Shown here piece after piece: positions 432-41,752 of a stretch of 55,916 bases of DNA. The notes beneath the pieces are model-generated. The model was not told the DNA's origin and ran no database searches. It worked only from the letters and a program-made list of their open reading frames with translations. The translations under genes were made by a program, and so were the position numbers. Position 1 is the first letter of the stretch. Each line of letters opens with the position of its first letter. The DNA is from an uncultured Desulfosporosinus sp. (lineage in GTDB: Bacteria; Bacillota; Desulfitobacteriia; Desulfitobacteriales; Desulfitobacteriaceae), in NCBI GenBank assembly GCA_927405585.1, contig CAKMJS010000125.1, positions 1 to 55,916 on the forward strand. Direction: 5' to 3'.

Positions 432-495
432 TTAAAGACCATGGAGGTCATTAGGCGGCAAGACGGCGCCTGTGATTTTCTATGGTTTTTTTTAT
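432..495 (+). promoter_or_regulatory. GACCATGG leader hairpin, copy A
   Basis: AAAGACCATGGA pairs with a TCTATGGTTTTTT segment around an inner AGGCG/CGCCT helix, and a T-run follows. It lies about 100 bases before the first binding lipoprotein (598) and on the same strand. Its inner part (AGGCG...CGCCTGTGAT) matches copy B at 2938. I infer a terminator or attenuator in the leader of the downstream gene. It could equally end transcription of the structured RNA upstream. Confidence 0.6.
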
Positions 496-2463: not shown

Positions 2464-2883
2464 ATGCGGGTAGCAGTTATCGATGGACAGGGCGGTGGCA
2501 TTGGGAAACATATTGTAGAACAGTTACGCAAACGAATTCCCGAACTGGATATCCTCGTGCTGGGAACGAATGCACTTGCCACTGGAGCAATGATGCGCGC
2601 GGGAGCCACAGAAGGAGCTTCAGGGGAGTCCGCGATTTGTTATAATATTGATCGGGTAGACATTATTGCAGGATCGATTGCCGTAATGATGGTCTATGGT
2701 TTATTGGGGGAAATAACACCCACGATGGCTACGGCTATTTCGGCTAGTAAAGCAGTCAAATTATTGCTTCCGATACAACGTGGAAATATTCTACTCGTGG
2801 GAGTCCCCCGTAGCCCTCTGCCTCACCAGATTGAAGCCTTAGTGAACGAAGTAGAGGAACGATTAAAAATTGACCCTTCATGA
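2464..2883 (+). CDS. DUF3842 family protein
   Basis: This 139-residue protein begins MRVAVIDGQGGGIGK, a glycine-rich nucleotide-binding-like N terminus, and has the internal TNALATGAMMRAGA and GLLGEITPTMA segments that I recognise as the DUF3842 family. The function of the family is not established. ATG 2464 is chosen because GGAGGGA ends three bases before it; a longer upstream reading of the same frame overlaps the methyltransferase gene and lacks such a site. It is the last gene of the 598-2883 unit and is followed by a strong bidirectional hairpin terminator. The operon position ties it to chelate uptake only by context. Confidence 0.75.
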   Translation: MRVAVIDGQGGGIGKHIVEQLRKRIPELDILVLGTNALATGAMMRAGATEGASGESAICYNIDRVDIIAGSIAVMMVYGLLGEITPTMATAISASKAVKLLLPIQRGNILLVGVPRSPLPHQIEALVNEVEERLKIDPS

Positions 2884-2937: not shown

Positions 2938-2997
2938 AAAAGACCATGGAGATCATCAAGCAGTAAGGCGCGCCTGTGATTTCCATGGTCTTTTTTG
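2938..2997. terminator. Bidirectional terminator, GACCATGG family copy B
   Basis: AAAAGACCATGGA pairs exactly with TCCATGGTCTTTTTT, with an inner palindrome AGGCGCGCCT. It lies between the convergent ends of the genes at 2883 and 3047, and both strands have a terminal T-run. It is built like copy A, which shows that the same sequence family can serve as an ordinary terminator. Confidence 0.75.
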
Positions 2998-3046: not shown

Positions 3047-3868
3047 CTAAACTTGCCAATAAATCCAAGCGGTTTTTGTCCGAACTTTTTCCCGCACAAA
3101 TCCATTGACAGAGACCTCTTTAAGGTAACCTCTGATTAAATTGTTCTGCTTATCACCGGAGTTATCCTGTGGTTCAAAGAGTGTACCATAATAAATACAA
3201 GCTTCCTCGACAGTGCGGACATGTTCTCGATCTGTATCGACATAGGCAATGCTTGGATAATAGCCAGTCAGCCAAAGGATATTAAAGATGCTGTACACTG
3301 TATTGGTGTAGAATTTTCCTTCATCAAGTTTGAGTATTTCCGTGCGCAGAATATCCTGTATAGAGTCGGAGCGATCAACAAAATTGGATAAAAAGCAGTA
3401 GCCCTTGCTGGCCTCGATCATCTTCTCAAGAGTGATCAGATTATGGATCCCGGGGCTGTTGATCGCGGTCACCAAGTCGAACCGTTTTCTCCAGCCGTAG
3501 TCATCAAGGTTGACCTCATCCCAGTTTATGTTTTTAAAGGAGGTATTGGTAAGGTTAGCTGCTGCGGCATTCTTTAACACATAGTCTAGCATATTGTCAG
3601 ATATGTCTAGGCCGGTAACGTCTGTCGAGAGCTTTGCAAATTCTACGGCAAACCGTCCCGGACCACAGCCAATGTCTAGGATGCTGCTATTCTTTGCGAG
3701 CAGACCATGATCAAACAAAAATTCAACTATTTTACGAATACGTTCGTCGGGCTGGCCTTGCGTAACTAATTTATTAAACTCGGCTGCCCTGTTGTCCCAA
3801 AACGCCTTTCCGGATTTGCTGGTGGTCGTTTTTTCGCTCCAAAGATCTGCGAAGTATTGAAGCTCCAT
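3047..3868 (-). CDS. SAM-dependent methyltransferase linked to FmdE gene
   Basis: This 273-residue class I methyltransferase has motif I ILDIGCGPGRFAVEF (about residues 64-78) and motif II DVTGLDISDNML; the AFWDNRAAEFNKL segment near the N terminus is common in the family. The C-terminal half (WLTGYYPSIAYVDTDREH) is not one I can place and may bind the acceptor. It is translated directly after the FmdE-family gene, with only three bases between that stop and this start, so the two are one transcription unit. The pairing of a methyltransferase with FmdE and chelate-uptake genes suggests a shared role in handling a metal or its ligand. That is inference. Confidence 0.8.
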   Translation of the reverse strand: MELQYFADLWSEKTTTSKSGKAFWDNRAAEFNKLVTQGQPDERIRKIVEFLFDHGLLAKNSSILDIGCGPGRFAVEFAKLSTDVTGLDISDNMLDYVLKNAAAANLTNTSFKNINWDEVNLDDYGWRKRFDLVTAINSPGIHNLITLEKMIEASKGYCFLSNFVDRSDSIQDILRTEILKLDEGKFYTNTVYSIFNILWLTGYYPSIAYVDTDREHVRTVEEACIYYGTLFEPQDNSGDKQNNLIRGYLKEVSVNGFVREKVRTKTAWIYWQV

Positions 3869-3871
3869 CCA

Positions 3872-4402
3872 TTACCATCCTCTCGAATAGTCTTTGAAGC
3901 AGTCAAGACAGACTTTCTTGCCGTCATTGAGGCGAAGTTTATGCTCCGGAGCACCTTCTCCGCAAATTTCACACACTACTGTCGTAAATAATCTGGCCTT
4001 TTCAGGCAGCTCAAAGGTCGGCTTCGAGAAATTAAAGAGTTCATCGACAGGCGAGTTGAGCAGAAATTCTTGACGTTGCTGACGGTCCATTTCTCCCTGG
4101 AAAGACTTCAGGATCACTCTTAAGCTTTCGCCATTGGATCTGTTATAGAAGCTGAAGGCCATCTTGCCGGTCCCTTTATACAGAAGATTCCCTTTCCCAA
4201 AAGTACAGCCCGTGAGTACCTGAACGGCATCGACACCGCAGGCATCGTTTTCGGTAACGCAGACGATTTCCTCATCAGGAGAAAAACGCAGACCCATTTT
4301 CCTAATCGCGGCCTCACAGGCTTTAAAACCGATCGCCAGACCTGGGCATTCATGTCCATGAAATTCTACGGATTTTTCCCATGGTGTTTTTTCTCTACAC
4401 AT
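3872..4402 (-). CDS. FmdE family protein with C-terminal zinc ribbon
   Basis: This 176-residue protein has the FmdE signature FHGHECPGLAIGFKACEAAI near the N terminus, then TENDACGVDAVQVLTGCTFGK spread over residues 45-66, and a two-pair cysteine ribbon CEICG...CLDC at the C terminus. FmdE was named from molybdenum formylmethanofuran dehydrogenase operons of methanogens, but stand-alone homologues in Clostridia have no proven role. The conserved His/Cys cluster looks suited to binding metal. The start at 4402 is set by AAAGGGGA about nine bases upstream on the minus strand; a longer reading adds a hydrophobic stretch without such a site. Leader copy C precedes it. The protein at 3047 follows in the same operon. 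Confidence 0.82.
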   Translation of the reverse strand: MCREKTPWEKSVEFHGHECPGLAIGFKACEAAIRKMGLRFSPDEEIVCVTENDACGVDAVQVLTGCTFGKGNLLYKGTGKMAFSFYNRSNGESLRVILKSFQGEMDRQQRQEFLLNSPVDELFNFSKPTFELPEKARLFTTVVCEICGEGAPEHKLRLNDGKKVCLDCFKDYSRGW

Positions 4403-4431
4403 CAAAATAATCCCCTTTCGTATTGAGAAAA

Positions 4432-4511
4432 CCAAAAAAGACCACAAAAAACTGACTATCAAAGTCAGACCTCCATGGTCTTTGCAAACACCTTCGTGGT
4501 CCTGCAGGTTT
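4432..4511 (-). promoter_or_regulatory. GACCATGG leader, tandem-box copy C
   Basis: Read on the minus strand, this has two boxes, GGACCACGAAGGTGTTTGCA and AGACCATGGAGGTCTGACTT. They are followed by AGTCA, then TTTTTTGTGGTCTTTTTT, which pairs with the second box to make a terminator hairpin. It ends about 30 bases before the FmdE gene and closely matches copies F and G. The spacing and order are the same in all three. Confidence 0.7.
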
Positions 4512-4686: not shown

Positions 4687-4750
4687 ATAAAAAAATTAGA
4701 CCATGGAGGTCTGGCTTCAATACAGAAGTCAGCTTCATGGTCTAATTTTT
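4687..4750 (+). promoter_or_regulatory. GACCATGG leader hairpin, copy D
   Basis: AGACCATGGAGGTCTGGCTT pairs with AAGTCAGCTTCATGGTCT around a short loop, and a T-run follows. It ends about 28 bases before the second binding lipoprotein. An AAGCAGGAATT motif lies about 45 bases upstream, and the same motif faces it upstream of copy C. Confidence 0.7.
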
Positions 4751-4777: not shown

Positions 4778-5905
4778 ATGAACAGAATTCTAGCAGTATT
4801 TTTGACCATTCTTATGTCCGTGTTGCTTTTAGCGGGATGTGGAGGAACGGCAGGTACGAAGGAAGCAGGAACAGTTCCGACGACGCCTCAAGCCCAGAAA
4901 CAAAAAATTACCGATTTGGTCGGCAGAGAAGTTGAAGTGGCAGTCCCTGTCCAAAGAGTCGTGGCGATCGGACCGGGTGCGTTGCGGTTGGTGACTTATA
5001 CCGAAGGAGCAGCCATGGTGGTCGGTATTGAAGAGATTGAGAAGAAACCTAACCTAGGAAGATCCTATACGATGGCTTATCCGGATTTGCTAAAGCTACC
5101 CAGTATTGGGCAGGGGGGCCCGGATACGGCTCCGAATGAGGAGAGCTTAGTTAGTGCCAAACCTGATGTGATTTTTGTCAGCACCCTCGTAGATAAAGAA
5201 AAGGCCAATCAACTTCAAGCCAAGACGGGGATTCCAGTCGTTGTTCTAAGCTATAGTAGTAGTACAACGTCATTTGATGAAAATTTATATCGATCTTTGA
5301 CAATGTTGGGCACGATCCTTGGCAAGGAAAAGAGGGCTCAAGACGTTGTGGCCTATCTTAAACAAAATGAAAAGGATTTAGCAGATCGGACAAAGGGTGT
5401 TCCAGAAAGTGAAAAAGCCAAGGTTTATGTTGGGGCAGTGAGTATGAAAGGTGTACGCGGGATAGAAAGTACTCAAGCCAAATACCCACCGTTAATGTTT
5501 ATAGGAGCAAAAAATGTAGTTGATGAAACTGGAAAAAGCGGAAGCTTCATGATTGATAAAGAAAAACTGATCAGTTGGGATCCTGATATTTTGTTTCTTG
5601 ATGCAGGTGGGTATGCGCTAGTTACAGAAGATTACAAAAAAAACCCGGCCTTCTACCAGTCCCTGCGGGCGGTGAAGAACGGGAAAGTTTATAACCAGAT
5701 TCCTTATAATAACTATTCTGCTAATATTGATACAGCCTTTGCCGATGCCTATTTTGCAGGCAAAATAATTTTTCCTAAGCAGTTCCAAGACATCGATCCG
5801 ATTAAAAAGAGCGATGAAATTTATCAGTTTCTACTAGGTAAGCCCCTGTATGCAGATATGGCACGGAATTTAGGTGGTTTTATCAAGCTAGAGCTCGGAA
5901 AATGA
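4778..5905 (+). CDS. Metal-chelate ABC transporter substrate-binding lipoprotein
   Basis: This 375-residue PF01497-type binding protein has a lipoprotein signal ending LLAGC (Cys21). It is the close paralogue of the protein at 598; shared stretches include ITDLVGREV, KTGIPVVVLSY and YQSLRAVKNGKVYNQIPYN. It is followed after 16 bases by a FecCD-like permease and an overlapping ATPase, making a complete importer. ATG 4778 is preceded by AAGGAG. Upstream lies leader copy D, in a divergent intergenic region shared with FmdE. The ligand is not visible. Family members carry ferric siderophores, cobalamin, haem or nickel chelates; I favour a nickel or cobalt chelate from context. Two copies may recognise different ligands for one transporter. 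Confidence 0.9.
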   Translation: MNRILAVFLTILMSVLLLAGCGGTAGTKEAGTVPTTPQAQKQKITDLVGREVEVAVPVQRVVAIGPGALRLVTYTEGAAMVVGIEEIEKKPNLGRSYTMAYPDLLKLPSIGQGGPDTAPNEESLVSAKPDVIFVSTLVDKEKANQLQAKTGIPVVVLSYSSSTTSFDENLYRSLTMLGTILGKEKRAQDVVAYLKQNEKDLADRTKGVPESEKAKVYVGAVSMKGVRGIESTQAKYPPLMFIGAKNVVDETGKSGSFMIDKEKLISWDPDILFLDAGGYALVTEDYKKNPAFYQSLRAVKNGKVYNQIPYNNYSANIDTAFADAYFAGKIIFPKQFQDIDPIKKSDEIYQFLLGKPLYADMARNLGGFIKLELGK

Positions 5906-5921
5906 TATGAGGTGATTAGCG

Positions 5922-7001
5922 TTGGTTCGTGATGAAACCCTGCCTGATGGCGAGATAACTCACTATTTGAGATATACTTGGAAGAAAAAAATAATCATGT
6001 TGGGTCTGATGATGATGACGGCAATGCTTGCCCTCTATGCCATCAGTGCCGGTTCAGCCGAGCTTTCGCCTTGGCAAGTCTTACTGACGTTACTCGGTCA
6101 AACCGAGGGGCAGTCAAAGATTATCATTTGGTCCATCCGCTTGCCTCGGGTGTTGGCAGCCATGGTCGCTGGGATCGGTTTGGCGGTGGCGGGAGCAGTC
6201 ATGCAAACTATCCTCCGAAATCCCTTGGCGTCTCCGAGTACCCTCGGGATTGCTCAAGGCGCAGCCTTCGGGGCTGCGCTGGCCATCATTGGGTTGGGTG
6301 CAGGTAGTACTCCCAGTACTGGCGGAGGTGCGTTGCTGATTAACAGCCCCTATCTTGTCACAATCTCAGCCTTCGTAGCGGCCATGCTTACGACGATGAT
6401 CATTCTCTTTCTGGCCCAATATAAGGGGGTGTCCCCGGAGTCGATGGTGTTAGCTGGGGTGGCCCTAGGATCTCTCTTTTCGGCAGCCACAATGCTATTA
6501 CAGTATTTCACCAACGATGTGAATGTTGCTGCTGTCGTTTTTTGGACCTTCGGTGACATCGGGAGGGCATCCTGGGGGGAGTTGGGAATTATGTTCTGTG
6601 TCGTCTTTGGCTCCTTGCTCTTTTTCTTGTTTAACCGTTGGAATTACAACGCCCTGGATAGTGGGGCAGAGACTGCCAAGGGTCTCGGTGTCAACGTGGA
6701 AAGCACGAGACAGTGGGGGATGTTTTTTGCTTCTTTGATCACTGCCACCGTCGTTTCCTTCCTGGGCATCATGGCTTTCATTGGTCTCGTGGCTCCCCAC
6801 CTCGTAAAGCGCTTGATTGGCGGGGACAATCGCTTTCTTATTCCAGCGTCTGGGGTGATGGGTGCTCTGTTACTTCTGGCGGCCGATACTCTAGCTAGAC
6901 GAATCATTGCGCCTGTAGTCTTGCCTGTTGGGGCAGTCACTTCCTTTCTCGGGGCACCGCTCTTTCTCTATCTGCTGGTTAGGGGGTCTAAATTGCGATG
7001 A
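5922..7001 (+). CDS. FecCD-family ABC transporter permease
   Basis: This 359-residue integral membrane protein has about nine to ten hydrophobic segments. The family hallmarks are IRLPRVLAAMVAGIGLAVAG, QTILRNPLASPSTLGI and the cytoplasmic coupling region near FIGLVAPHLVKRL. It begins with TTG at 5922, supported by GAGGTGAT a few bases upstream. It moves the chelate brought by the lipoprotein at 4778, with the ATPase at 6998, which overlaps it by four bases (GATGA). A decayed copy of its middle region lies at 9063-9172, which shows that a second such operon once existed nearby. Confidence 0.92.
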   Translation: MVRDETLPDGEITHYLRYTWKKKIIMLGLMMMTAMLALYAISAGSAELSPWQVLLTLLGQTEGQSKIIIWSIRLPRVLAAMVAGIGLAVAGAVMQTILRNPLASPSTLGIAQGAAFGAALAIIGLGAGSTPSTGGGALLINSPYLVTISAFVAAMLTTMIILFLAQYKGVSPESMVLAGVALGSLFSAATMLLQYFTNDVNVAAVVFWTFGDIGRASWGELGIMFCVVFGSLLFFLFNRWNYNALDSGAETAKGLGVNVESTRQWGMFFASLITATVVSFLGIMAFIGLVAPHLVKRLIGGDNRFLIPASGVMGALLLLAADTLARRIIAPVVLPVGAVTSFLGAPLFLYLLVRGSKLR

Positions 7002-7750
7002 TCTTATCAGTTAATGGGATCGAATTTAGATATGGTAGCCGGCCAATCTTAGAAAATATTGGCTTTACGGTACAGAGAGGTGAGTTTCTATCGATTCTAG
7101 GGAACAATGGCGCTGGAAAATCCACGCTGCTCAAGACCTTGAACAAGATACTGTCACCGAAAAAGGGAAGCATTTTATTGGATGGGCAGGAAGTGTCTAA
7201 GCTAAGTCGCTTGGCAATAGCCCTTAAGATGGCCTATGTCGCGCAGAACTACGAGAGTAACCGACAAACCGTCTTTGACGCAGTACTCTTAGGTCGTAAA
7301 CCCTACATTAAGTGGGAGGCAACAGCGTCGGATTTGGCGTTGGTGCAAGGGGTATTGGCAAAAACAGGTCTGGAGGAGTTTGCTCTGCGCTACTTAGATG
7401 AACTGAGCGGGGGAGAACTGCAGAAAGTCGTCATTGCTAGGGCTTTAGCACAGGAACCCGAGGTCCTGTTACTAGATGAGCCAACCAGTAATTTAGACCT
7501 GAGAAATCAAATGGAAGTCCTGAAAACCATCCAGACCGCTGCCAAAGAGAAGAATATAGCGGTGATCGCTGTGATGCACGATCTTAATCTCGCTTTGCGC
7601 TTTTCAGATAAATTTATGTTACTCCAGAACACCAAGGTCTTTGTCGCTGGCGGTCCAGAAGTGATGACAGCAGAAAATATTACTCAGTCGTACGGGGTTT
7701 CAGTTAGTGTGGAAAGGGTACGGAATCAAATCGTTGTGATCCCCATGTGA
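6998..7750 (+). CDS. FecE/BtuD-type ABC transporter ATPase
   Basis: This 250-residue nucleotide-binding protein has Walker A GNNGAGKST (about residues 36-44), signature LSGGELQKV, Walker B VLLLDEPTSNLD and an H-loop MHDLNLA. These are typical of chelate/cobalamin importers. It overlaps the permease stop by four bases and ends the 4778-7750 operon. Its last codons (VSVERVRNQIVVIPM) recur in a short fragment at 8482, a remnant of a lost paralogue. A hairpin terminator follows at about 7839. Confidence 0.92.
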   Translation: MILSVNGIEFRYGSRPILENIGFTVQRGEFLSILGNNGAGKSTLLKTLNKILSPKKGSILLDGQEVSKLSRLAIALKMAYVAQNYESNRQTVFDAVLLGRKPYIKWEATASDLALVQGVLAKTGLEEFALRYLDELSGGELQKVVIARALAQEPEVLLLDEPTSNLDLRNQMEVLKTIQTAAKEKNIAVIAVMHDLNLALRFSDKFMLLQNTKVFVAGGPEVMTAENITQSYGVSVSVERVRNQIVVIPM

Positions 7751-8054: not shown

Positions 8055-8110
8055 ATTAGACCATGGAGGTCTGGCTTGAATCGAAAGTCAGCTTCATGGT
8101 CTTTTTTTCC
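8055..8110 (+). promoter_or_regulatory. GACCATGG leader hairpin, copy E
   Basis: AGACCATGGAGGTCTGGCTT pairs with AAGTCAGCTTCATGGTCT and is followed by seven T. The arms are nearly identical to copy D; only the loop differs. The small gene at 8159 follows about 50 bases later, so this unknown gene belongs with the metal genes by leader. Confidence 0.7.
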
Positions 8111-8158: not shown

Positions 8159-8341
8159 TTGATTCGAAATGATAAACTACACGAGATTGAAAAGCGGAGG
8201 CAAGTGCTGAAGGCTGCGCGAGAAGAAATTTTAGGCAAATTCATATCAGAAAAGGAACAACGCTCTCAGTGGCTGGTGAAGCTTCTAGATCTTGATGACG
8301 AACTCGAAGAATTATCCCATCAGCAAAGCAAATTGATCTAA
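8159..8341 (+). CDS. Small charged protein of unknown function
   Basis: This 60-residue protein is rich in Lys, Glu and Arg and probably entirely helical, ending in SQWLVKLLDLDDELEELS. I know no family for it. Two things argue that it is real: AAAGGAGG lies eight bases before the TTG start, and a clear paralogue is coded at 21712 (shared REEIL/GEIL, QWLVK, DELEELS). This copy stands behind a GACCATGG leader, the other behind a cobalamin riboswitch. A helical hairpin or coiled coil with a partner protein is plausible. No metal-binding residues such as Cys are present, and only two His. Confidence 0.6.
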   Translation: MIRNDKLHEIEKRRQVLKAAREEILGKFISEKEQRSQWLVKLLDLDDELEELSHQQSKLI

Positions 8342-8481
8342 TACGCATGAGTTTTGCTATTTTAAATTATATAGATAAGATGAGAAAAAGAGGCACTAAG
8401 TTAAGGGCGGGGAAAGAGATGAACGGCACGATGGTGGTCTAACGTCTGAAAAAACGTTTCCAGCCTTGACCTATAGAAATT

Positions 8482-8529
8482 GTAAGCGTGGAAAGGGTAC
8501 GGAACCAAATGGTCGTGATACCCAGGTAA
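8482..8529 (+). pseudogene. Fragment of a FecE-like ATPase 3' end
   Basis: These 48 bases translate to VSVERVRNQMVVIPR then stop, almost the same as the last codons of the ATPase at 6998-7750. No start or catalytic region is present. Together with the permease scrap at 9063 it is the residue of a lost second importer operon. The ATPase end now lies before the permease piece, so a rearrangement has occurred. Confidence 0.7.
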
Positions 8530-8533
8530 CAAA

Positions 8534-8740
8534 TTAATGTGTATGTAGATGCTCGTGGTGTGTAAGCTCGTGCTCGTGATCTTTACCTGCCTGGTGATCA
8601 TGTTCATGACCGTGTGTATATGCGGGGTGAGTATGCTCGTGGACGTGCATTTCGCCATTATGCATGTGTGAGTGTGTGTGGTGAATTTCAGAATGTTCAT
8701 GTTCATGTACAAGTTCATGACTAATAATATCCTTTTCCAT
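8534..8740 (-). CDS. Histidine-rich small protein, probable nickel-binding
   Basis: This 68-residue protein is about one third histidine, with runs such as HEHEHSEIHHTHSHMHNGE and HGHEHDHQAGKDHEHEL and a HTH end. Such sequences bind Ni, Zn or Cu, as in Hpn-like storage proteins and the histidine tails of nickel chaperones. There is no signal peptide or membrane segment, so a cytoplasmic store or chaperone is likely. The ATG at 8740 has GGAGGT eight bases upstream on the minus strand; a TTG six bases earlier is too close to that site. It is next to CooT on the same strand, separated by the permease remnant and a large hairpin, so the two may be transcribed separately. Confidence 0.75.
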   Translation of the reverse strand: MEKDIISHELVHEHEHSEIHHTHSHMHNGEMHVHEHTHPAYTHGHEHDHQAGKDHEHELTHHEHLHTH

Positions 8741-8913
8741 TACCAATTACCTCCATGACAAATTTCTGAATTTAGCTTTCACATTTCCAAATGTTTTATA
8801 CATTACAACTTGATATGTAAAGGGATTTATTATTTTAATACCGAATTGAGGTGATGATCGATCACCCAGGAGAGGGTGTGGCTGGCCTTCACGTCCGGTT
8901 CCATGAGAAACTC

Positions 8914-8961
8914 AATGCCAATGCCTAATACGACTGATCGGTCGCATTAGGCATTGGCATT
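8914..8961. repeat. Long perfect hairpin (16-bp arms)
   Basis: AATGCCAATGCCTAAT and ATTAGGCATTGGCATT are perfectly complementary, around a 16-base spacer that itself contains CGAC/GTCG. It lies between the His-rich gene and the permease remnant. It may be a terminator of the minus-strand cooT transcript or a small mobile remnant; the T-run is weak on both sides. Confidence 0.5.
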
Positions 8962-9062
8962 TTAGATGAGGTGATCACACGCTGAGTCTGGCTATACCAG
9001 TACTCGGAGTACTACTTGCTCCCAACCCGATGATGGTCAGCGCAGGCCCAAAGGCTGCGCCT

Positions 9063-9172
9063 TGGAGGAGCGTTGCTAATTAATAGCCCCTATATTGACA
9101 CTAATTCGGCCTTCGTAGCGGCCATGATTACTACTATGATCCTTCTCTTTCTAGCCCAATATAAGGGGGTGT
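9063..9172 (+). pseudogene. Fragment of a FecCD-like permease
   Basis: About 110 bases match positions 6322-6430 of the intact permease gene with scattered changes. Shared runs include CCTTCGTAGCGGCCATG and CCCAATATAAGGGGGTGT. It has no start, no end and no flanking permease sequence. It abuts the 3' end of cooT, and marks deletion of a paralogous importer. Confidence 0.75.
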
Positions 9173-9177: not shown

Positions 9178-9366
9178 TTAAATCTTTTCTAAGACAATAC
9201 GGTGGTTGAGAAGGGTCATATCTTTAATTTTGGCTTTAGTAAATAGTTGTTTTCCGAAAATATCCACTAGTTTAAGTCCATCTTCACAGGGTTCGATGGT
9301 ATCAACCGACTCCATGAGCATTACCTCGTTTTCTCCATCTCTGAGAAAGGCATTTGATTCACACAT
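9178..9366 (-). CDS. cooT: CooT family nickel-binding protein
   Basis: This 62-residue protein starts MCESNAFLRDGENEVMLMES and continues DTIEPCEDGLKLVDIFGKQ, with IVLEK at the end, matching the CooT family of small nickel-binding proteins linked to carbon monoxide dehydrogenase maturation. The conserved Cys2, which in characterised CooT takes part in nickel binding, is present. The ATG at 9366 is preceded on the minus strand by a GAAGGAG site. No CO dehydrogenase gene is in this window. On its own strand it is preceded by two inverted repeats (9459-9546) and leader copy H (9686-9741). It is the strongest single pointer to nickel for this region. Confidence 0.85.
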   Translation of the reverse strand: MCESNAFLRDGENEVMLMESVDTIEPCEDGLKLVDIFGKQLFTKAKIKDMTLLNHRIVLEKI

Positions 9367-9458: not shown

Positions 9459-9546
9459 CAGACCTAATAATATCATGACGGTCAGATCAAAATATTATTA
9501 GGTCTGATGTTGATAGTTTCCATAAGGAACCAGACTTTCCTTATGG
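9459..9546 (-). promoter_or_regulatory. Two inverted repeats in the cooT leader
   Basis: CAGACCTAATAATAT pairs perfectly with ATATTATTAGGTCTG (9459-9473 with 9492-9506), and CCATAAGGA pairs with TCCTTATGG (9520-9528 with 9538-9546). Both lie between leader copy H and cooT on the minus strand. Neither has a T-run, so they may be operators or structured leader RNA. Confidence 0.45.
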
Positions 9547-9683
9547 ATCATGAGTTGACATTTTCGCACGTAAGATGCAAGAGGACTTTGAAGGTATTTT
9601 GGAACGCCGAATTCATTATTTACAAACCATGGAAAGACATCCGGCGTGAGCTCGTATGCCAATAATCACCTCCTTGCAAAATA

Positions 9684-9742
9684 ATAAAGACCATGGAAAG
9701 TATGACCAGACAACTGTCAGGTCAAGACCTCCATGGTCTCGT
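9684..9742 (-). promoter_or_regulatory. GACCATGG leader hairpin, copy H
   Basis: On the minus strand AGACCATGGAGGT pairs with ACTTTCCATGGTCT, around a second perfect stem TGACC/GGTCA with an inner GACA/TGTC. A short T-rich tract follows. It is about 320 bases upstream of cooT in the right orientation. Apart from this copy and the cooT leader repeats, the 800-base stretch 9367-10176 holds copy F and no gene I can support. Confidence 0.6.
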
Positions 9743-10000
9743 TTTCATAATGAAATTTACTATAAGAATTATATTCTACATACAAGAGTTAATTCCTTCT
9801 TTTCTAAGAAAAGATCTTTTTTTGTAAGTCATAAGAAAATACCATCAGATACAAAGTCCCGACAAGAGAGGGGTTTGAAACCCATCGATTACGGTGTTCC
9901 CTGAGGGAAAATAATTATTTTCTTAAGCAGGGTCCACCTGGGCAGGAAATTGTGGACCTATCTAGAATATAAATACCTATCTCATAATTGATATAGCAGA

Positions 10001-10071
10001 GCAAGACCATGTAGGTGTTTGCAAGGACCATGGAGGTTTGACTCGTTAGAGTCATCTTTGTGGTCTTTTTG
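10001..10071 (+). promoter_or_regulatory. GACCATGG leader, tandem-box copy F
   Basis: The first box is AGACCATGTAGGTGTTTGCA and the second GGACCATGGAGGTTTGACT. A GTCATCTTTGTGGTCTTTTT segment then pairs with the second box to form a terminator. The first box CCATG can instead pair with CATGG of the second. It precedes the Nik-type importer operon. GCAGGAAATT lies about 55 bases upstream. Confidence 0.72.
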
Positions 10072-10176
10072 TTATGTTAGGGAGGACGTGATAGCGGCGG
10101 CATTAGAAATAATTATTGGGCAAGTCATTGAACAAGAAAATGGTTTGAATAATTGATTGATTGAGGAGTAGTGTAT

Positions 10177-11760
10177 ATGCAAATAGTTAATTACAAAAAG
10201 AGCAAGTATCTCAGCCTGTTCATCGCAGCGGTCCTGCTGGTGACCCTCTTACTTTCCGGATGCCAGAAGGCAGCTATAAATGATAGTCCAACGAAGGCAA
10301 TTAAACAGGAATTGGTGATCGGAGAGCAATTTGATTTAGTCAGTTATGATCCATCCAAAAATATGTCCGATTTTGTAAGAGCACTGGTCTTCAACAGCTT
10401 GGTAGAAATTGATATGGATTTTAAAAAATCGCCTGGTCTGGCAGAAACTTGGACCATGAGTCCTGATGGAAAAACTTGGACTTTTCAATTACGGAAAAAT
10501 GTTGTGTTCCATGATGGTACTCCCTGGAATTCTGAGGCAGCAAAAACTAACTTAAAGTGGCTGGCCAATGGGTCAGGGAAAAATACCTTAGCGGCCGTCG
10601 AGAGTATAGAAACGCCGGATCCATCGACGCTGATTATCAAACTCAAAAAACCAGTCTTTACCTTTGACTCTGATCTAACACCTCCCTTTATGTCCATGGT
10701 CAGTCCCAAAGCGATTGATGAAAAAGGAACTGTAACCGCTGCTATAGGTACCGGACCCTTTAAACTGGTCAGCTGGCAGAAGGATAATAATTTTGTGATG
10801 GAGAGAAATGAACAATACTTTGCAGGAGCACCTAAGCTCACGAAACTGACCTTCAAAGTTATGCCGGATGCAGAGTCCAGAGCGATGGCTCTAGAGGCCG
10901 GACAAATTGATCTGATGAGTGGCCGCGAAGCGTTGACTGCAGTCCAGAGATTGAAGACGAATCCAGCTTTGAAAATTGTGAAGAAAATGGGACAGACATC
11001 TGAACTGATGTTCTTTAATCTTTATAAAGCGCCCTTTGATGACTTGAAAGTTCGTCAGGCAGTAGCTAATGCCATTAACCTTAATGAAATGATCCCCAAA
11101 CTGATCGGTGACCTGGCAGAACCGCCGGTGAATTTCTTTTCCACGGCCTTTGGTAAATTTCTAAATCCCAATCCTCAGATGCCCAAATATGACCTCCAAG
11201 CGTCAAAGGCCCTCTTGGCAGAGGCTGGTTGGAAGGACTCCGATGGAGACGGCATCCTAGAGAAAAGTGGTACGAAGCTGAAAGCAACGCTTAGTTACGG
11301 ATCTAATAATACAGAGGATAAACTTCTTTGCACAGCGTTTCAGGGAGCACTCAAGGGAATTGGTATGGAGGTTGACCTGCGTCCTATGGATACGGCAGCT
11401 TTGAAACAAGCCTTAGAGAAGAAAGATTACCAGCTGATTATGGTGGGGCAATGGTCGGTCCCTCATGATGATCCGTCTATGCATTACATTAGTGGATATT
11501 GGCATAGCAAATCGACCTATACCATTTTCACCTCTCCGGAGCTCGATTCTAGAATAGACAAACTAGCGGCCTCTCTGGACGCTCAGGAAAGAATCAAACT
11601 GCATCAAGAGATTCAGGCGGAGATCATGAAAAACACGCCTGAAATGGTAATCTTCCATCGGAATAATGTGCTGGTTATGAAAAAGAATATTGAGAATCTG
11701 AATCCCTCCGTCGGAACCTGGCAGATTTTCAGAGGGCTCACTCAAGCAGAGATCAAATAG
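10177..11760 (+). CDS. Nickel/peptide-type ABC transporter substrate-binding lipoprotein
   Basis: This 527-residue SBP_bac_5 protein has a lipoprotein signal ending LLLSGC (Cys29), then the family blocks LAETWTMSPDGKTWTFQLR, VVFHDGTPW and IGTGPFKL. ATG 10177 is preferred to GTG 10171 because TTGAGGAG lies eight bases before it. It is the first gene of a five-gene importer (10177-15349). NikA, CntA and oligopeptide receptors share this fold, so sequence class alone does not fix the ligand. The leader shared with CooT and NikMN, and the His-rich neighbour, make nickel or a nickel complex the likely cargo. Confidence 0.87.
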   Translation: MQIVNYKKSKYLSLFIAAVLLVTLLLSGCQKAAINDSPTKAIKQELVIGEQFDLVSYDPSKNMSDFVRALVFNSLVEIDMDFKKSPGLAETWTMSPDGKTWTFQLRKNVVFHDGTPWNSEAAKTNLKWLANGSGKNTLAAVESIETPDPSTLIIKLKKPVFTFDSDLTPPFMSMVSPKAIDEKGTVTAAIGTGPFKLVSWQKDNNFVMERNEQYFAGAPKLTKLTFKVMPDAESRAMALEAGQIDLMSGREALTAVQRLKTNPALKIVKKMGQTSELMFFNLYKAPFDDLKVRQAVANAINLNEMIPKLIGDLAEPPVNFFSTAFGKFLNPNPQMPKYDLQASKALLAEAGWKDSDGDGILEKSGTKLKATLSYGSNNTEDKLLCTAFQGALKGIGMEVDLRPMDTAALKQALEKKDYQLIMVGQWSVPHDDPSMHYISGYWHSKSTYTIFTSPELDSRIDKLAASLDAQERIKLHQEIQAEIMKNTPEMVIFHRNNVLVMKKNIENLNPSVGTWQIFRGLTQAEIK

Positions 11761-11761
11761 T

Positions 11762-12718
11762 ATGAAATCCTATGTCTTCAAACGACTGTTACAATTAATT
11801 CCCGTCTTGTTGGGTGTATCTGTGGTTACCTTCACCCTGATACACTTGGCCCCGGGGGATCCTGCCCATTTCATGCTGCAAAAGACGGGTGCCGAGCCAA
11901 CCAAGGAAGCTCTCCAGGCACTCCGGCATGAAATGGGTCTGGATCTGCCAATTTGGCAGCAGTACCTGAGGTGGTGCGAACAAATTCTGCAGCTTAATTT
12001 AGGAATATCGATTAAGAGCGGAGATACAGTCCTAAAAGAGCTCCTCGACAGGCTGCCGGCAACCTTAGAACTGGCCGCCTCCAGCCTGGCTTTTGTGGTA
12101 TTAGTAGCCTTTCCCTTGGGAATATTCTCTGCCATGTATAAAGGACGATGGATCGACCAACTTTCCCGAGCAATGGCCATAGTTTTTGGGGCCATGCCTC
12201 GGTTCTGGTTAGGTCTTTTGTTTATTTATTTTTTTGCCGTGAAGTTTCATGTCTTGCCTGTGGCAGGTAGAGGGGATGCAGTGCATTTGCTTCTCCCGAC
12301 CTTGACACTAGGTTTGGGAATGTCGGCTAACTACGCCAGACTATTGCGAACCAGCCTGCTTGAAGTGTTCAGCCAGGAATATGTCCGCGCTGCCAGAGCA
12401 AGAGGGGTAAAACCAGGACAGCTTGTGATAAACTATGGCCTGAAAAATGCTCTTGTTCCTATCTTAACGGCCTTTGGTATGAGTCTTGGGCAATTGCTGG
12501 GCGGCAGTGCCATCATTGAGACGGTTTTTAGTTGGCCGGGCATCGGAAAATTTGCCCTGGAGTCAATCATGAACAGAGATTACATGGTTGTCCAGGGCTA
12601 TGCTCTCCTGATGGCACTGATTTTTGTAGTTGTGAACCTCTGTATCGATGTCGCCTGTATGCTGCTGGATCCCAAGACGAAAAAGTTGCAAGTTAAGCAG
12701 GCAGGGGGTGGAAAATGA
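11762..12718 (+). CDS. NikB/DppB-type ABC permease
   Basis: This 318-residue membrane protein has the N-terminal YVFKRLLQLIPVLLGVSVVT block, about six transmembrane segments, and the cytoplasmic loop EYVRAARARGVKPGQLVINYGLKNAL (EAA-type motif). It begins two bases after the receptor stop and its end overlaps the next permease by four bases. It forms the channel with the protein at 12715. Confidence 0.92.
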   Translation: MKSYVFKRLLQLIPVLLGVSVVTFTLIHLAPGDPAHFMLQKTGAEPTKEALQALRHEMGLDLPIWQQYLRWCEQILQLNLGISIKSGDTVLKELLDRLPATLELAASSLAFVVLVAFPLGIFSAMYKGRWIDQLSRAMAIVFGAMPRFWLGLLFIYFFAVKFHVLPVAGRGDAVHLLLPTLTLGLGMSANYARLLRTSLLEVFSQEYVRAARARGVKPGQLVINYGLKNALVPILTAFGMSLGQLLGGSAIIETVFSWPGIGKFALESIMNRDYMVVQGYALLMALIFVVVNLCIDVACMLLDPKTKKLQVKQAGGGK

Positions 12719-13575
12719 GCCGCAAACTGTGGCGTAAGCCAATGATTTTAATAGGGTGCCTCATCCTCTTGTTCTATATGGTGGTGGCATGTTTGGCTCC
12801 TGCGCTTGTTCCAAATAATCCGGATGAAATCCATCTGGACAGCCTCTTTTTGCCTGCGGATGCAACCTATCCTTTGGGGACGGACTTTTTAGGCAGATGC
12901 AGTTATTCGCGTCTGATTATGGCCAGCCGACATACGTTAGGTGCAGCTTTGCTAATCGAGGGGATTGTCCTCGTGGTAGGGGTCACGATAGGAGGATTAG
13001 CTGGCTACTTCAAAGGATGGTTGGATAAAGTTATCATTAGTATCATCGACATTCTCTTGGCTTTTCCCGGGATAATTTTGGCCCTGGTGATCGCAGGAAT
13101 GCTGGGCCCTGGGATGAAGAATCTCATTATTGCTGTTTCGGCGGTTCACTGGATAGGATATGCCAGGATTGTCAGGAATATGGTAATCTCTGTAAAGGAG
13201 AAAGAGTTTGTGACAGCCGCTGTTTCGTTAGGCAGTAACCATCCGCAGATTATTTTCAAGCATATCCTGCCCAACATTCTGCCCTTTATCTTGGTTTATG
13301 CAACCTTGAATTTGGGTTTACTGATCTTGAACATAGCGGGACTTTCCTTTCTTGGGCTGGGGGTTCAACCTCCTACAGCAGAATGGGGTGCAATGCTGAA
13401 TGAGGCCAGACCGTATTTTAGGGATTATCCGGCCTTGATGTTACTGCCGGGAGCTGCCATTTTAGTGATTGGGCTGGCGTTTCAGCTTATCGGCGAAGGA
13501 TTGCGGGATATCCTGAGTCCCAGAGCATCTCAACTTGGTCTGGAAAAAAGAATCCTGGCAGAGCTAGAAGAATAA
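12715..13575 (+). CDS. NikC/DppC-type ABC permease
   Basis: This 286-residue membrane protein has the typical DppC start with the YPLGTDFLGR motif after the first membrane segment. Later come DILLAFPGIILALV, the KEFVTAAVSLGSNHPQIIFKHILPN coupling loop, and FLGLGVQPPTAEWG. Five to six membrane segments are visible. It overlaps the preceding permease (ATGA). The ATPase gene at 13596 follows after 20 bases. Confidence 0.92.
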   Translation: MSRKLWRKPMILIGCLILLFYMVVACLAPALVPNNPDEIHLDSLFLPADATYPLGTDFLGRCSYSRLIMASRHTLGAALLIEGIVLVVGVTIGGLAGYFKGWLDKVIISIIDILLAFPGIILALVIAGMLGPGMKNLIIAVSAVHWIGYARIVRNMVISVKEKEFVTAAVSLGSNHPQIIFKHILPNILPFILVYATLNLGLLILNIAGLSFLGLGVQPPTAEWGAMLNEARPYFRDYPALMLLPGAAILVIGLAFQLIGEGLRDILSPRASQLGLEKRILAELEE

Positions 13576-13595
13576 ATCGGGGGTGGAAGGGAACC

Positions 13596-14564
13596 ATGCT
13601 TGAAGCAAGAGAACTGTATAAAAAATATCCGGGAGGAGCTCAAGCAGTTCGAGGGGTATCCCTTAGAATTCTGCCGGGAGAGACTTTGGGTTTAGCAGGG
13701 GAAAGCGGCTGTGGAAAGTCAACCTTGGGGAAGCTGTTACTAAGGCTGGAGGAGCCGGATAGTGGCAGCCTTTTACTTGAGGGGACTGATTATACAAAAT
13801 TCACTGGGAAAAAAATGCGTAATCTGCGCCGCAAAATTCAGATGGTTTTTCAAGACTGTTCCGGTTCCTTGAATCCTAGACTCACCGTAGCCCAAAGCTT
13901 GTCAGAACCGTTGAACAATTATTTCAGTCTGAGTGCCGGAGAGAGGGAAGCCCAGATTCGGACCTTATTAGAATCGGTAGGACTTCAGCCTGGACATAGT
14001 CAGAGATTTCCCCATGAGCTTTCTGGAGGACAACGACAACGAGTGGGAATTGCCCGGGCCCTGGCTGTTCAACCTGAATGGATGATCTGTGATGAACCGG
14101 TTTCCAGTTTAGATGTTCTAGTTCAGGCTCAGATTTTAGAACTCTTTGCAGAAATCAAAGAGGAACGCAGGATAAGCCTGCTGTTTATATCTCATGATCT
14201 TTCAGTCTTAAGTCGTGTCAGTAGCAAGATCGCCATTATGTATGAAGGGCAGCTTGTCGAGGTGCTGCCTGCCGAGAATCTCAAAAAGCAGGCAGCACAT
14301 CCCTACACCCAAGAATTGATCAGAGCGGTTCCGGTGCTTGGGCTGCGACGACAGTCTGTGTCAAGACAGCCTGTGGATGAGACATTAAGCAAAGAAACCC
14401 CAAACCACGGGTGTTCATACCTGGCCAGATGTAATCGGGCCAATGAGCAATGTGCTGTTCAAAGGCCGGTGTTGAGAAGTTATGGGACAGCTCAAGTGGC
14501 TTGCCACTTTCCCGGTCAAGTAAGCAGTAATAAGACTAAAGGATGGATAACGTCATGCTTTTGA
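13596..14564 (+). CDS. Nik/Opp-type ABC ATPase (OppF-like, with C-terminal Cys domain)
   Basis: This 322-residue ATPase has Walker A GESGCGKST, signature LSGGQRQRVGIARAL, Walker B MICDEPVSSLD and an H-loop SHDLSV. The last 60 residues carry the Opp C-terminal region with CSYLARCNRANEQC, a cysteine-rich segment known from oligopeptide/nickel ATPases. GGGTGGAAGG precedes ATG 13596. It pairs with the ATPase at 14543, which it overlaps. The order here is F-like before D-like, the reverse of E. coli nikDE. Confidence 0.88.
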   Translation: MLEARELYKKYPGGAQAVRGVSLRILPGETLGLAGESGCGKSTLGKLLLRLEEPDSGSLLLEGTDYTKFTGKKMRNLRRKIQMVFQDCSGSLNPRLTVAQSLSEPLNNYFSLSAGEREAQIRTLLESVGLQPGHSQRFPHELSGGQRQRVGIARALAVQPEWMICDEPVSSLDVLVQAQILELFAEIKEERRISLLFISHDLSVLSRVSSKIAIMYEGQLVEVLPAENLKKQAAHPYTQELIRAVPVLGLRRQSVSRQPVDETLSKETPNHGCSYLARCNRANEQCAVQRPVLRSYGTAQVACHFPGQVSSNKTKGWITSCF

Positions 14565-15349
14565 GTCTGGATAACCTGACCATTAGTTTTAAATCTGAGA
14601 CTGAATCACTTCAGGCGGTGAAGGGCGTTTCCTTGCAAATTGCAAGCAGCGAAATACTGGGTCTGGTCGGTGAAAGCGGCAGCGGAAAAACAGTTCTGGC
14701 CAGTTCTCTGCTGGGGATGGTGGAATCTCCCAGCAGAATTGAAAGCGGGAATATCATCTTTAACCTGAGTACGGGAAGCGTTTTCTTAACTAAGCTCCCT
14801 GAAAGGAGCTGGCAGGATATTAGAGGGAAACACATTTCCATGATTTTTCAGGATCCGATGAATGCCCTGAATCCGGCCAGAACTATCGGAAGTCAGTTTT
14901 TAGAAGCCATCCATATCCATAAACCACAGCTTGATAGAGCTAACGCTGTCAGGCTGGCTGTCGATATGCTGGACCGGGTGTGGTTGAATAAACCTGTCGA
15001 TTTACTGCCTCGTTATCCCTTTGAGCTAAGTGGGGGAATGCGGCAGAGAGTGATGATTGCTATGGCTTTGGTGCATGAACCGCAGCTATTGATTGCCGAT
15101 GAGCCTACTACCGCGCTGGATGTCACAGTTCAGGCCCAGATCTTGGATATTCTGCTTGATTTGAGACAGCGCATAAATATGGCCATCCTATTTATTTCCC
15201 ATGATTTAGCAGTGGTAGGAAGCATTGCAGATAGGATTGCTGTGATGCACGACGGAGAAATAGTTGAAACTGGGCAAACATCAGACATCCTGGAAAATCC
15301 GCAGCATGAGTATACCAAAAAACTGCTTTGGGCAGCTCCTAGTTTTTGA
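14543..15349 (+). CDS. Nik/Opp-type ABC ATPase (OppD-like)
   Basis: This 268-residue ATPase has Walker A GESGSGKT, the Q-loop MIFQDPMNALNPARTI, signature LSGGMRQRVMIAMAL, Walker B LLIADEPTTALD and an H-loop SHDLAV. It starts inside the preceding ATPase gene (22-base overlap at ATG 14543); an alternative ATG 12 bases later is possible. It lacks the cysteine-rich tail of its partner. It completes the receptor-two permeases-two ATPases importer. Confidence 0.88.
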   Translation: MDNVMLLSLDNLTISFKSETESLQAVKGVSLQIASSEILGLVGESGSGKTVLASSLLGMVESPSRIESGNIIFNLSTGSVFLTKLPERSWQDIRGKHISMIFQDPMNALNPARTIGSQFLEAIHIHKPQLDRANAVRLAVDMLDRVWLNKPVDLLPRYPFELSGGMRQRVMIAMALVHEPQLLIADEPTTALDVTVQAQILDILLDLRQRINMAILFISHDLAVVGSIADRIAVMHDGEIVETGQTSDILENPQHEYTKKLLWAAPSF

Positions 15350-15565
15350 GGGAATCTAAGAAGGAGAAGAGATGAAAAGACATATTGCTCAATAACAGCT
15401 GAAGATGGTACTCCATATTTTGTGTATCAAATTAGAAGATGGTATCGGCCCCCAAAGACCCATATTTGGTGCCTCCGATGTAAGAAAAAACTTTCAGACT
15501 TTTTTTTCTTTTGCAGGAAATTTATAAATGTTGTAGAACGTATTTATAGTAAGATAAACATTGCT

Positions 15566-15640
15566 GAGCAAGACCATGAAGGTGTTTGCAGAAACCATGG
15601 AGGTTTGACTCATTGAGAGTCAACTTTGTGGTTTTTTTGT
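15566..15640 (+). promoter_or_regulatory. GACCATGG leader, tandem-box copy G
   Basis: AGACCATGAAGGTGTTTGCA, then AAACCATGGAGGTTTGACT, then AGTCAACTTTGTGGTTTTTTT. It has the same layout as copies C and F, including the GTTTGCA linker. It stands about 125 bases before NikMN. GCAGGAAATT lies about 50 bases upstream, and a TTGTAG...GATAAA promoter-like pair (16-base spacer) lies between. The 412-base gap 15350-15762 holds no other supported feature. Confidence 0.72.
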
Positions 15641-15762: not shown

Positions 15763-16815
15763 ATGCATATGGCAGATGCCTTGATTTCACCGTTAGTGGG
15801 TGGAACCATGTGGGTGGCAACAGCAGGTGTTGCAGCTTATTCGATTAAGAAGATTCAAAACGAGATGGATGAAAAGAAAATTCCTTTAATGGGGGTTATG
15901 GGTGCGTTTATCTTTGCCTCCCAGATGATCAACTTCACGATACCGGCAACAGGTTCGAGTGGTCATATCGGAGGGGGTTTATTACTTGCAATCTTACTGG
16001 GGCCCTATGCGGGCTTCCTTACTATCGCCTCGGTTCTCACGATTCAAGCGCTATTTTTTGCAGATGGAGGGTTACTCGCCTTGGGGAGTAATGTGTTCAA
16101 TATGGGCTTTTTCTCCTGTTTTATTGCCTACCCTCTGATCTATAAACTGTTCATGAAAAAGGGGTATTCGACGAAGCGAATAATCGTTGCATCCGTTATT
16201 GCAGCAATCATTGGCCTTCAGATGGGTGCTTTTGGTGTCGTGCTAGAAACGCTCTTTTCCGGCAAGACCGAGTTGCCTTTTGTAACATTTGTACTATTAA
16301 TGCAGCCAATTCATCTGGCAATTGGTGCAGTAGAGGGTCTTGTCACGGCAGCCGTTGTAACATATATTTGGAACGCTCGGCCTGAAATTATTGAGGGGGC
16401 TGCTTCTGGGGATGCGATAGGCAATGTCTCCATCAAGAAGGTCATTGCTGGAATGGTCACCCTTGCACTGATTACAGGGGTAGGGTTATCTTGGTTTGCC
16501 TCTTCCAATCCGGATGGTTTGGAATGGGCCATGATTAAAACGGCTGGTACCGCCGAACTGGAAGCCCCCGATGGCTTACATCAGCACCTATCTGACCTCC
16601 AGAGCAAGATCGCATTTCTGCCTGATTATTCCTTTAAGGCACCTGAAAGTGAGGTAGGAGAAAGTGCAGGAGAAAGCGAAGAAGCATGGCCTGCCGTAAG
16701 CGGAGGAACGAGTACCTCAGGATTAGTAGGTGGCGGAATGACACTTGCCTTAGCGGCCATTGTGGGTGCGGGTATCAGCATATTGAAGCGACGGAGGAAC
16801 CGAGCAAACGCTTAA
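15763..16815 (+). CDS. nikMN: NikMN fusion, nickel ECF transporter S-component
   Basis: This 350-residue protein begins MHMADALISP, the exposed N-terminal Met-His pair that chelates the metal in NikM/CbiM, followed by seven or so membrane segments and the conserved ATGSSGHIGGG block. A C-terminal NikN-like part carries SNPDGLEWA (PDGLE motif), a periplasm-facing loop and a last membrane helix near residues 322-340. Such M-N fusions are typical of nickel, while CbiM and CbiN for cobalt are separate, as seen at 19435/20184. No Q or O gene follows directly, so it must borrow the CbiQ/CbiO modules at 17559/18438 or partners elsewhere. GGAGGG precedes ATG 15763. Confidence 0.88.
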   Translation: MHMADALISPLVGGTMWVATAGVAAYSIKKIQNEMDEKKIPLMGVMGAFIFASQMINFTIPATGSSGHIGGGLLLAILLGPYAGFLTIASVLTIQALFFADGGLLALGSNVFNMGFFSCFIAYPLIYKLFMKKGYSTKRIIVASVIAAIIGLQMGAFGVVLETLFSGKTELPFVTFVLLMQPIHLAIGAVEGLVTAAVVTYIWNARPEIIEGAASGDAIGNVSIKKVIAGMVTLALITGVGLSWFASSNPDGLEWAMIKTAGTAELEAPDGLHQHLSDLQSKIAFLPDYSFKAPESEVGESAGESEEAWPAVSGGTSTSGLVGGGMTLALAAIVGAGISILKRRRNRANA

Positions 16816-17087: not shown

Positions 17088-17231
17088 AATACGGCATTCA
17101 GTCAAAAGCCCAGTAGTAGGATGATTGATTTTGAGGCGTGAAGAAACAGTTGCGACGCTTTGGCCTTACCCAATGGGACTATACAAACTTATTGGTTCGT
17201 GTTACAATATGCACAATTAAATATGTAGGAA

Positions 17232-17400
17232 TAAGTGATTCTTTCCTGAGGGGAAAGAATTGAAAAGGGAAGTCAGTTAAGCTGACACGGCGCCCGCCAC
17301 TGTGAAAGGGAGTCTGCTTACAAAATGTCACTGGGTATCCAATCCTGGGAAGACGTAAGTCGATGAAGATCTTAAGTCAGGAGACCTGCTTGTTCTGAAG
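17232..17400 (+). promoter_or_regulatory. Cobalamin riboswitch 1
   Basis: The conserved core elements appear in order: GAAAAGGGAAGTCAG, GCCCGCCACTGTGA, TCACTGGG, GGGAAGACG and the B12 box AAGTCAGGAGACCTGC at about 17374. It precedes cbiQOMN-cobK, so cobalt uptake is expected to fall when cobalamin is plentiful. A terminator hairpin follows at 17462. Confidence 0.95.
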
Positions 17401-17461
17401 TGAAAACTACCTACGGGAGTGTTGGGGGGTTTATTATTAGTGTTCGTGATTGATACGAGCT

Positions 17462-21341: not shown

Positions 21342-21399
21342 TAAGAACTTTCATGAACCCTGTCATTCCCATGTTCATGAAGAGAACAATTTAATAGTT

Positions 21400-21575
21400 G
21401 GTAATGAGTGATTCTTTTCTAAGGGAAAGAATTGAAAAGGGAAGTCAGTTAGAATCTGACGCGGTCTCGCCACTGTAATAGGGAGTTGCCTCATAAAATG
21501 TCACTGGATTTTATCTGGGAAGACGTGGGGTAATGATGAACTAAAGCCAGGAAACCTGCTCATTGCAGATAAACA
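21400..21575 (+). promoter_or_regulatory. Cobalamin riboswitch 2
   Basis: The core order matches riboswitch 1: GAAAAGGGAAGTCAGTTAG, GCCACTGTAATAGGGAG, TCACTGG, GGGAAGACG and B12 box AAGCCAGGAAACCTGC (about 21544). A terminator hairpin CCCTTTACAG/CTGTAGAGGT with a T-run lies at 21656-21687. The genes behind it are small and unknown. Confidence 0.95.
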
Positions 21576-21655
21576 CAGGAACCTACGAAGATAGGGGAGG
21601 TGTCTTTTTTGTCGGGTATTCAGCGTATTTTATCCGGCTAGCGGAGTCACTATAT

Positions 21656-22646: not shown

Positions 22647-22721
22647 CGAACGCCTCGGCAAGTGTCATGAAGCAATAACTAGATGAAATAGGCGGATTAG
22701 CAAAGTAACCCGCCCCTTCCC

Positions 22722-22756
22722 GAACCGTACAAGCGACTTTCGAACGCATACGGCTC
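22722..22756 (-). ncRNA. Group II intron domain V
   Basis: The 35-base hairpin begins GAGCCG and ends CGGTTC on the minus strand, with the catalytic-type stem interrupted in the usual place. It is 18 bases beyond the stop of the intron protein. Confidence 0.9.
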
Positions 22757-22773
22757 TCCGTATTCCAAATGAG

Positions 22774-41720: not shown

Positions 41721-41752
41721 GCTAAGGTATATAAAGGAAAGGAGGTGAATAT

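Follow-up and report, generated by a model that had tools for sequence, protein, structure and literature searches.

The window, meaning the whole 55,916-nt stretch analyzed here, is part of a 4.48 Mb Desulfosporosinus genome and carries three copies of a leader element with two boxes (10001+, 15568+, and 4505-) and five with a single box (437+, 2942+, 4699+, 8059+, and 9738-). The genome has two more two-box copies outside the window (C5, 21066- and 23546+). All window copies but one or two precede metal or metallophore uptake genes, and the products encoded behind them are CbiM, a NikA-like SBP_bac_5 protein, Peripla_BP_2, FecCD, FmdE, and methyltransferases. The exceptions are the single-box copies at 2942 and 8059. 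In the list below, P1 and P2 are the small hairpins of the element, and C, F, and G are two-box copies.

434 to 492 (+): single-box element (P2/terminator) preceding genes for a periplasmic binding protein, a methyltransferase, and DUF3842
598 to 1767 (+): Peripla_BP_2 binding protein, metal/metallophore type
2464 to 2883 (+): DUF3842 (PF12953), Rossmann-like; candidate trans-acting factor
2939 to 2995 (+): single-box element that follows DUF3842 and lies between convergent genes; the + strand has no gene immediately behind it
3047 to 3868 (-): SAM-dependent methyltransferase after FmdE
3872 to 4462 (-): ORF with FmdE domain and DksA/TraR zinc finger; true start probably at about 4405
4433 to 4508 (-): copy C, P1 (ACGAA loop) and P2/terminator, preceding FmdE
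4696 to 4747 (+): single-box element before Peripla_BP_2, FecCD, and ATPase genes
4778 to 7750 (+): Peripla_BP_2, FecCD permease, and ABC ATPase
8056 to 8106 (+): single-box element before a small ORF
9184 to 9366 (-): CooT (PF10133), small nickel-binding protein; candidate metal sensor/trans-acting factor
9686 to 9741 (-): single-box element, CooT side
10001 to 10022 (+): P1 hairpin of copy F, GCAAGACC-AUGUA-GGU(G)UUUGC, comprising box 1 and the linker (from folding and stem covariation among homologues)
10026 to 10038 (+): P2 hairpin of copy F, GACC-AUGGA-GGUU, box 2; antiterminator candidate
10023 to 10069 (+): intrinsic terminator of copy F; the 5' arm holds P2, and the 3' arm is CTTTGTGGTC followed by a T-run
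10171 to 15349 (+): operon behind copy F for a NikABCDE-like ABC transporter, comprising SBP_bac_5, two permeases, and two ATPases
15565 to 15640 (+): copy G, P1 and P2/terminator, preceding CbiM
15763 to 16815 (+): CbiM-PDGLE, cobalt/nickel ECF substrate component

The element at 2939 to 2995 is perhaps a mere terminator or a relic. Directly behind the one at 8056 lies a small, charged ORF of 60 amino acids (8160 to 8342). Near CooT, a histidine-rich ORF without a Pfam match (8401 to 8718, -) recalls CooJ-type nickel-binding tails, and duplicated, inverted FecCD/ATPase gene fragments (8482 to 9172) are apparent gene remnants, pairing 6255 to 6432 with 8997 to 9172 and 7703 to 7748 with 8482 to 8527. 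A strong inverted repeat, TCAGACCTAATAATAT...ATATTATTAGGTCTGA, stands at 9459 to 9507, between CooT and copy F. Farther along the window, a group II intron RNA end (RF00029) adjoins a 590-amino-acid ORF (22683 to 24546, -), and direct repeats at 41666 to 42011 and 45737 to 46081, about 4.07 kb apart, share 180 nt at 88% and 171 nt at 84% identity. There is also a c-di-GMP-I riboswitch at 46711 to 46800 and a dinG RNA match at 47974 to 48075.

Two pentaloop hairpins and an overlapping terminator

The original prediction had described at 10001 to 10071 (+) a first box, a second box, a small hairpin, and a last arm. The letters there agree with that description exactly (GCAAGACCATGTAGGTGTTTGCAAGGACCATGGAGGTTTGACTCGTTAGAGTCATCTTTGTGGTCTTTTT), and the second box, the small hairpin, and the CTTTGTGGT-T-run arm are all found at copy F. 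With up to 3 mismatches allowed, the long box-1 pattern matched the window four times, versus 0.07 times expected from shuffles; the matches are copies F (10006+), G (15573+), and C (4500-) and one coding near-match. The linker GTTTGCA, which had been called invariant, is constant across the three window copies but variable among homologues, since it supplies the 3' side of the P1 stem. The boxes represent one small hairpin in duplicate: each folds on itself, and they are not mutual partners. Both hairpins are closed by an A-N-G-R-A pentaloop (AYGAA in P1; AUGGA in P2 of copy F), with the general consensus GCAAGACC-AUGAA-GGU(G)UUUGC for P1 and RACC-AUGGA-GGUY for P2.

Copy F also contains an intrinsic terminator, a GC-containing hairpin followed by a T-run, for which RNA folding gave -31.6 kcal/mol. 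P2 doubles as the 5' arm of this terminator, so that the two structures are mutually exclusive. A partial transcript lacking the 3' arm folds as P1, P2, and an apical hairpin, and this fold amounts to -17.4 kcal/mol, compared with -31.6 for the terminator. RNAalifold on 30 aligned copies returned P1 and the terminator. Given these energies, the terminator appears to be the default, so read-through would need a factor that stabilizes P2.

The predicted terminator/antiterminator switch thus survives in part: the leader has an intrinsic terminator, and the 5' arm of this terminator can take an alternative fold, but boxes 1 and 2 are not the alternative partners. It had been proposed that CCATG of box 1 pairs with CATGG of box 2 and thereby frees the last arm of the terminator. 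The two motifs are complementary, and all five pairs are kept in 24 of 29 copies. However, a search for covariation between the boxes, proposed at the time as a check, found none over 29 distinct homologues, an outcome that the prediction itself had named as refuting it. In 5 of the 29 copies the pairing is broken (ACCACG with CATGG), with no compensation. Folds forced into it reach -14.9 kcal/mol at best, versus -21.7 with P2 and -31.6 with the terminator, and box 1 is absent altogether from many copies. We consider the box 1-box 2 model scarcely credible; since this pairing lacks covariation and is energetically poor, the switch would lie between P2 and the terminator.

The covariation of P1 was assessed in 62 copies defined by position and loop only, with pairing not used for selection. 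All three inner pairs are present in 57 of the 62 copies, compared with 7.5% of background ANGRA motifs, and 180 of 186 P1 cells are paired, a value as high as which was seen in 0 of 2,000 shuffles. While the ANGAA loop stays constant, the inner stem takes the forms ACC/GGU, GCC/GGU, ACU/GGU, AUC/GAU, AUC/GGU, GCU/GGU, GCU/AGC, and CUC/GGG; this list of variants, unlike the two counts, was selected on pairing. Outer stems change as well, from GCAA/UUGC to CACCAA/UUGGUG or GCAG/CUGC, and distant genera carry unrelated P1 stems with an identical loop. For P2, 92.3% of the cells are paired over 31 diverse copies and covariation exceeds that of 497 of 500 shuffles, figures to be read with caution in that the identical columns pair within the terminator too. 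The terminator covaries (at one pair, GC in 16 and AU in 14 of 30 aligned copies). In the alignment of 30 copies its 5' arm, ACCAUGGAGGU, is invariant, whereas the 3' arm drifts via wobble pairs; the 5' arm therefore appears to have a second function.

Distribution of the element and the genes behind it

When 46 genomes of the family were searched by pattern, two-box copies turned up in 15, all of one genus, the window's own, and the reversed box pattern in none of the 46. A covariance model of P1 plus the terminator (R1) detected up to 13 copies per genome within the genus and weak single-box forms only in other genera of the family. Because R1 was weak outside the genus, we built a second model from P2 plus the terminator (R2). 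This model, which was trained on lineages having CooT and whose E values are rough, matched 107 of the 398 phylum genomes searched; false positives were recognized by hand in G112 and G346. At the gathering threshold, Rfam matched the element neither in the window nor at 12 related loci, and a permissive Rfam scan of positions 9600 to 10200 returned chance-level matches only.

About 140 elements in Desulfosporosinus clusters precede genes of the Ni/Co type. Within the genus, the downstream genes encode CbiM, periplasmic binding proteins, FecCD, NikA-like proteins, FmdE, methyltransferases, DUF3842, CsoR/RcnR-like regulators, and CooT. Elsewhere in the phylum, other classes have terminator-linked copies before genes for a HoxN/NicO-type permease, CbiM, FmdE plus a NikB-type permease, and CooT, and the matches checked there also precede Ni/Co genes such as those for LarC and metal-linked methyltransferases. 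Further downstream genes, named from their translations, include ECF components, CobN-like proteins, a hydrogenase maturation protease, and CooC-like ATPases. Among 76 downstream ORFs across the phylum sorted by Pfam domain, the most frequent were FmdE (9), CbiM (8), SBP_bac_5 (7), and DUF3842 (5); CobN (3), LarC (2), and NicO (2) were also present. From this gene content, the common denominator of the regulon is nickel, with cobalt possible too.

CooT and DUF3842 as candidate factors

CooT (PF10133) is encoded in 119 of the 398 phylum genomes and DUF3842 (PF12953) in 181. R2 and CooT occur together in 82 genomes, R2 alone in 25, CooT alone in 37, and neither in 254 (odds ratio, 22.5; P = 1.4e-33; at the genus level, P = 5e-22), statistics that ignore shared ancestry. 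Of the 33 genomes with three or more R2 matches, 31 have CooT. For R2 and DUF3842 the corresponding counts are 98, 9, 83, and 208 (odds ratio, 27, again ignoring shared ancestry). R2 and CooT without DUF3842 were found in 0 genomes, and R2 is present in 0 of the 7 CooT genomes that lack DUF3842. Among DUF3842 genomes, R2 occurs in 82 of 112 with CooT versus 16 of 69 without it (P = 4e-11). The CooT gene lies directly behind that of DUF3842 in at least 58 cases, in a list chosen for shared contigs. The element often directly precedes CooT or the DUF3842-CooT pair, and CooC-like genes follow element-associated CooT in some genomes.

The CooT of the window matches PF10133 with an E value of 1.9e-21; this family, we presume, was once named a predicted RNA-binding protein (RNA_bind_2, COG1532). 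Residues M1 and C2 are invariant in 31 CooT sequences. Cys2 is the nickel-binding residue of CooT, and the R. rubrum protein binds one nickel per dimer with a Kd of 9 nM (PMC6006190). A model of the window CooT aligned with the Carboxydothermus hydrogenoformans structure 6fan at a Z score of 13.0 (rmsd, 0.8 over 60 residues). Beyond CooT itself, the fold search reached F1 epsilon subunits and RimM PRC-barrel-like folds at Z scores of 4 to 5, too weak for use, and for DUF3842 it returned generic Rossmann-like matches only (best Z, 9.7), with no lead toward RNA binding. The published role of CooT is that of a CODH maturation factor; in the open literature on RNA-binding CooT, DUF3842, and nickel antitermination, we found nothing relevant.

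Together, the co-occurrence, the gene adjacency, the position of the element before the pair, and nickel binding by CooT place the candidate factor in the DUF3842-CooT pair. Against the pair stand verified elements in nearly complete genomes without CooT (G094, G285, G090, and G381), verified elements in G091, which has neither protein, and the 37 CooT genomes with no R2 match. The genomes that have verified elements but no CooT weaken the case for CooT alone as the factor; most of them have a DUF3842 match. Upstream of about 45 CooT genes of Desulfobacterota we found no element. Many Desulfobacterota (L169 to L218) conserve the DUF3842-CooT pair without the RNA element upstream of CooT; the pair can therefore exist without the element, and it may have other targets or functions there.

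Proposed antitermination and its alternatives

Nickel limits the hydrogenases, CODH, and other enzymes of anaerobes. On sequence grounds, the element is best read as a new RNA family for protein-dependent antitermination, and it is probably a conditional antiterminator of the nickel regulon, with a factor that comes from the DUF3842-CooT pair and acts under nickel shortage. Two successive ANGRA pentaloop hairpins would form in the leader RNA as it is made. By default the terminator would prevail and the Ni/Co genes would stay off. A trans-acting factor, most likely encoded by the pair, would hold the loops so that P2 persists, the terminator is blocked, and the uptake genes are read. CooT would be the nickel sensor, and either CooT or DUF3842 may contact the RNA. 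Since the downstream genes serve uptake, antitermination would be expected when the metal is scarce: the apo-factor would be bound and uptake switched on, and in the presence of nickel the loaded factor would be released and transcription terminated.

The ANGRA hairpins might instead act as a protein-free riboswitch, binding Ni2+/Co2+ or a metal compound and so setting the balance with the terminator. The short, highly conserved loops adjoin Ni/Co genes, elements remain in a few genomes without CooT or without both proteins, and the trans-acting protein is itself a candidate. We nevertheless regard this as rather unlikely. If a ligand stabilized P2, metal would switch the uptake genes on, the reverse of what uptake calls for; the single-hairpin versions, which are common, would leave only a tiny aptamer; and DUF3842 and CooT co-occur strongly with the element. 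Binding by an ANTAR-domain response regulator would suit the architecture, in which P1 is free and P2 lies within the terminator (PMC8934654). The dual-hexaloop antitermination systems EutV, NasR, and AmiR likewise have tandem hairpins, conserved loop bases, and a second hairpin within the terminator 5' arm, and ANTAR proteins are encoded in 70 of 83 class genomes, with 3 in that of the window. Yet the ANTAR RNA motif is defined by hexaloops carrying A1 and G4 (PMC8934654), whereas here covarying closing pairs fix A-N-G-R-A pentaloops with G at position 3, and we therefore do not class the element as an ANTAR motif. It also differs in its widespread single-hairpin forms, its Ni/Co regulon, and its co-occurrence with DUF3842/CooT rather than with ANTAR proteins, which are equally common in genomes without elements; ANTAR control is distinctly unlikely.

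A reading of the copies as plain intrinsic terminators or insulators, dispersed as an unregulated repeat, would be compatible with the strong, partly bidirectional folds and with the window copy at 2942, but it is very unlikely in view of the constant 5' arm beside a drifting 3' arm, the separately covarying P1, and the placement almost solely before Ni/Co genes. CsrA, encoded in 69 of 83 class genomes, could bind the GGA of the P2 loop, where CAUGGAGG resembles a CsrA site. This GGA is present in Desulfosporosinus P2 but not in P1, whose loops are AYGAA, and phylum-wide P2 loops are often AUGAA or ACGAA, without GGA (49 of 80); overall, the loops do not fit CsrA sites. Elements and CooT occur with no CsrA match in G001 (a one-contig genome), G002, and G034, and we judge CsrA binding extremely unlikely. 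Leader-peptide attenuation, with the loop AUG starting a short ORF, would agree with the P1 AUG lying in frame with the P2 AUG in 37 of 59 P1 copies. However, the AUG is missing from 10 of 59 P1 loops, many genomes have ACGGA or ACGAA in P2, and the P1-P2 spacing ranges from 18 to 22, so that reading frames change; we assign this explanation a practically negligible probability.

If protein-dependent antitermination by the DUF3842-CooT pair is correct, the ANGRA family would control nickel uptake, nickel-cofactor genes, and the regulator's own genes, and CooT, hitherto viewed as a CODH nickel chaperone, would regulate genes in these bacteria. A broader claim, which we advance tentatively and place a little short of probable, is that DUF3842 and CooT together make up an RNA-binding antitermination system that responds to nickel, the first of its kind known, acting through a phylum-wide ANGRA RNA family that also controls their own genes, with CooT as a gene regulator. 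Among the nickel accessory proteins CooT, CooJ, and CooC, the CooT gene carries or follows the element, but the RNA-linked regulatory role proposed here goes unmentioned in the literature consulted, where CooT is a CODH maturation factor. To our knowledge, nickel regulation has so far been ascribed either to DNA-binding proteins or to the NiCo riboswitch. A regulon run by antitermination, with as many as 13 sites per genome and present in roughly one-quarter of the sampled phylum genomes, would, if real, be a third way. It would offer CooT and DUF3842, both poorly understood, a testable role and predict which orphan transporters, methyltransferases, and FmdE proteins serve nickel (or cobalt) metabolism.

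The NiCo riboswitch (czcD; Rfam) is likewise an RNA tied to nickel/cobalt genes, but it is a multi-helix junction, whereas the ANGRA element consists of tandem minihairpins without an Rfam match. Cobalamin riboswitches (RF00174) serve cobalt/corrinoid genes in the same cluster of the window, at 17216 to 17407 and 21389 to 21577, before a CbiQ/CbiO/CbiM operon and another gene. They are unrelated to the element in sequence and structure, and the two kinds stand on different operons, so B12-type and ANGRA-type control appear to be split within one cluster. NikR also governs a nickel-uptake regulon but is a DNA repressor, and the genome of the window has no NikR_C match. In another genus of the family (g3; L061 and L066), single-box elements precede a gene for a CsoR/RcnR-like metal regulator, which would link RNA-level and DNA-level control.
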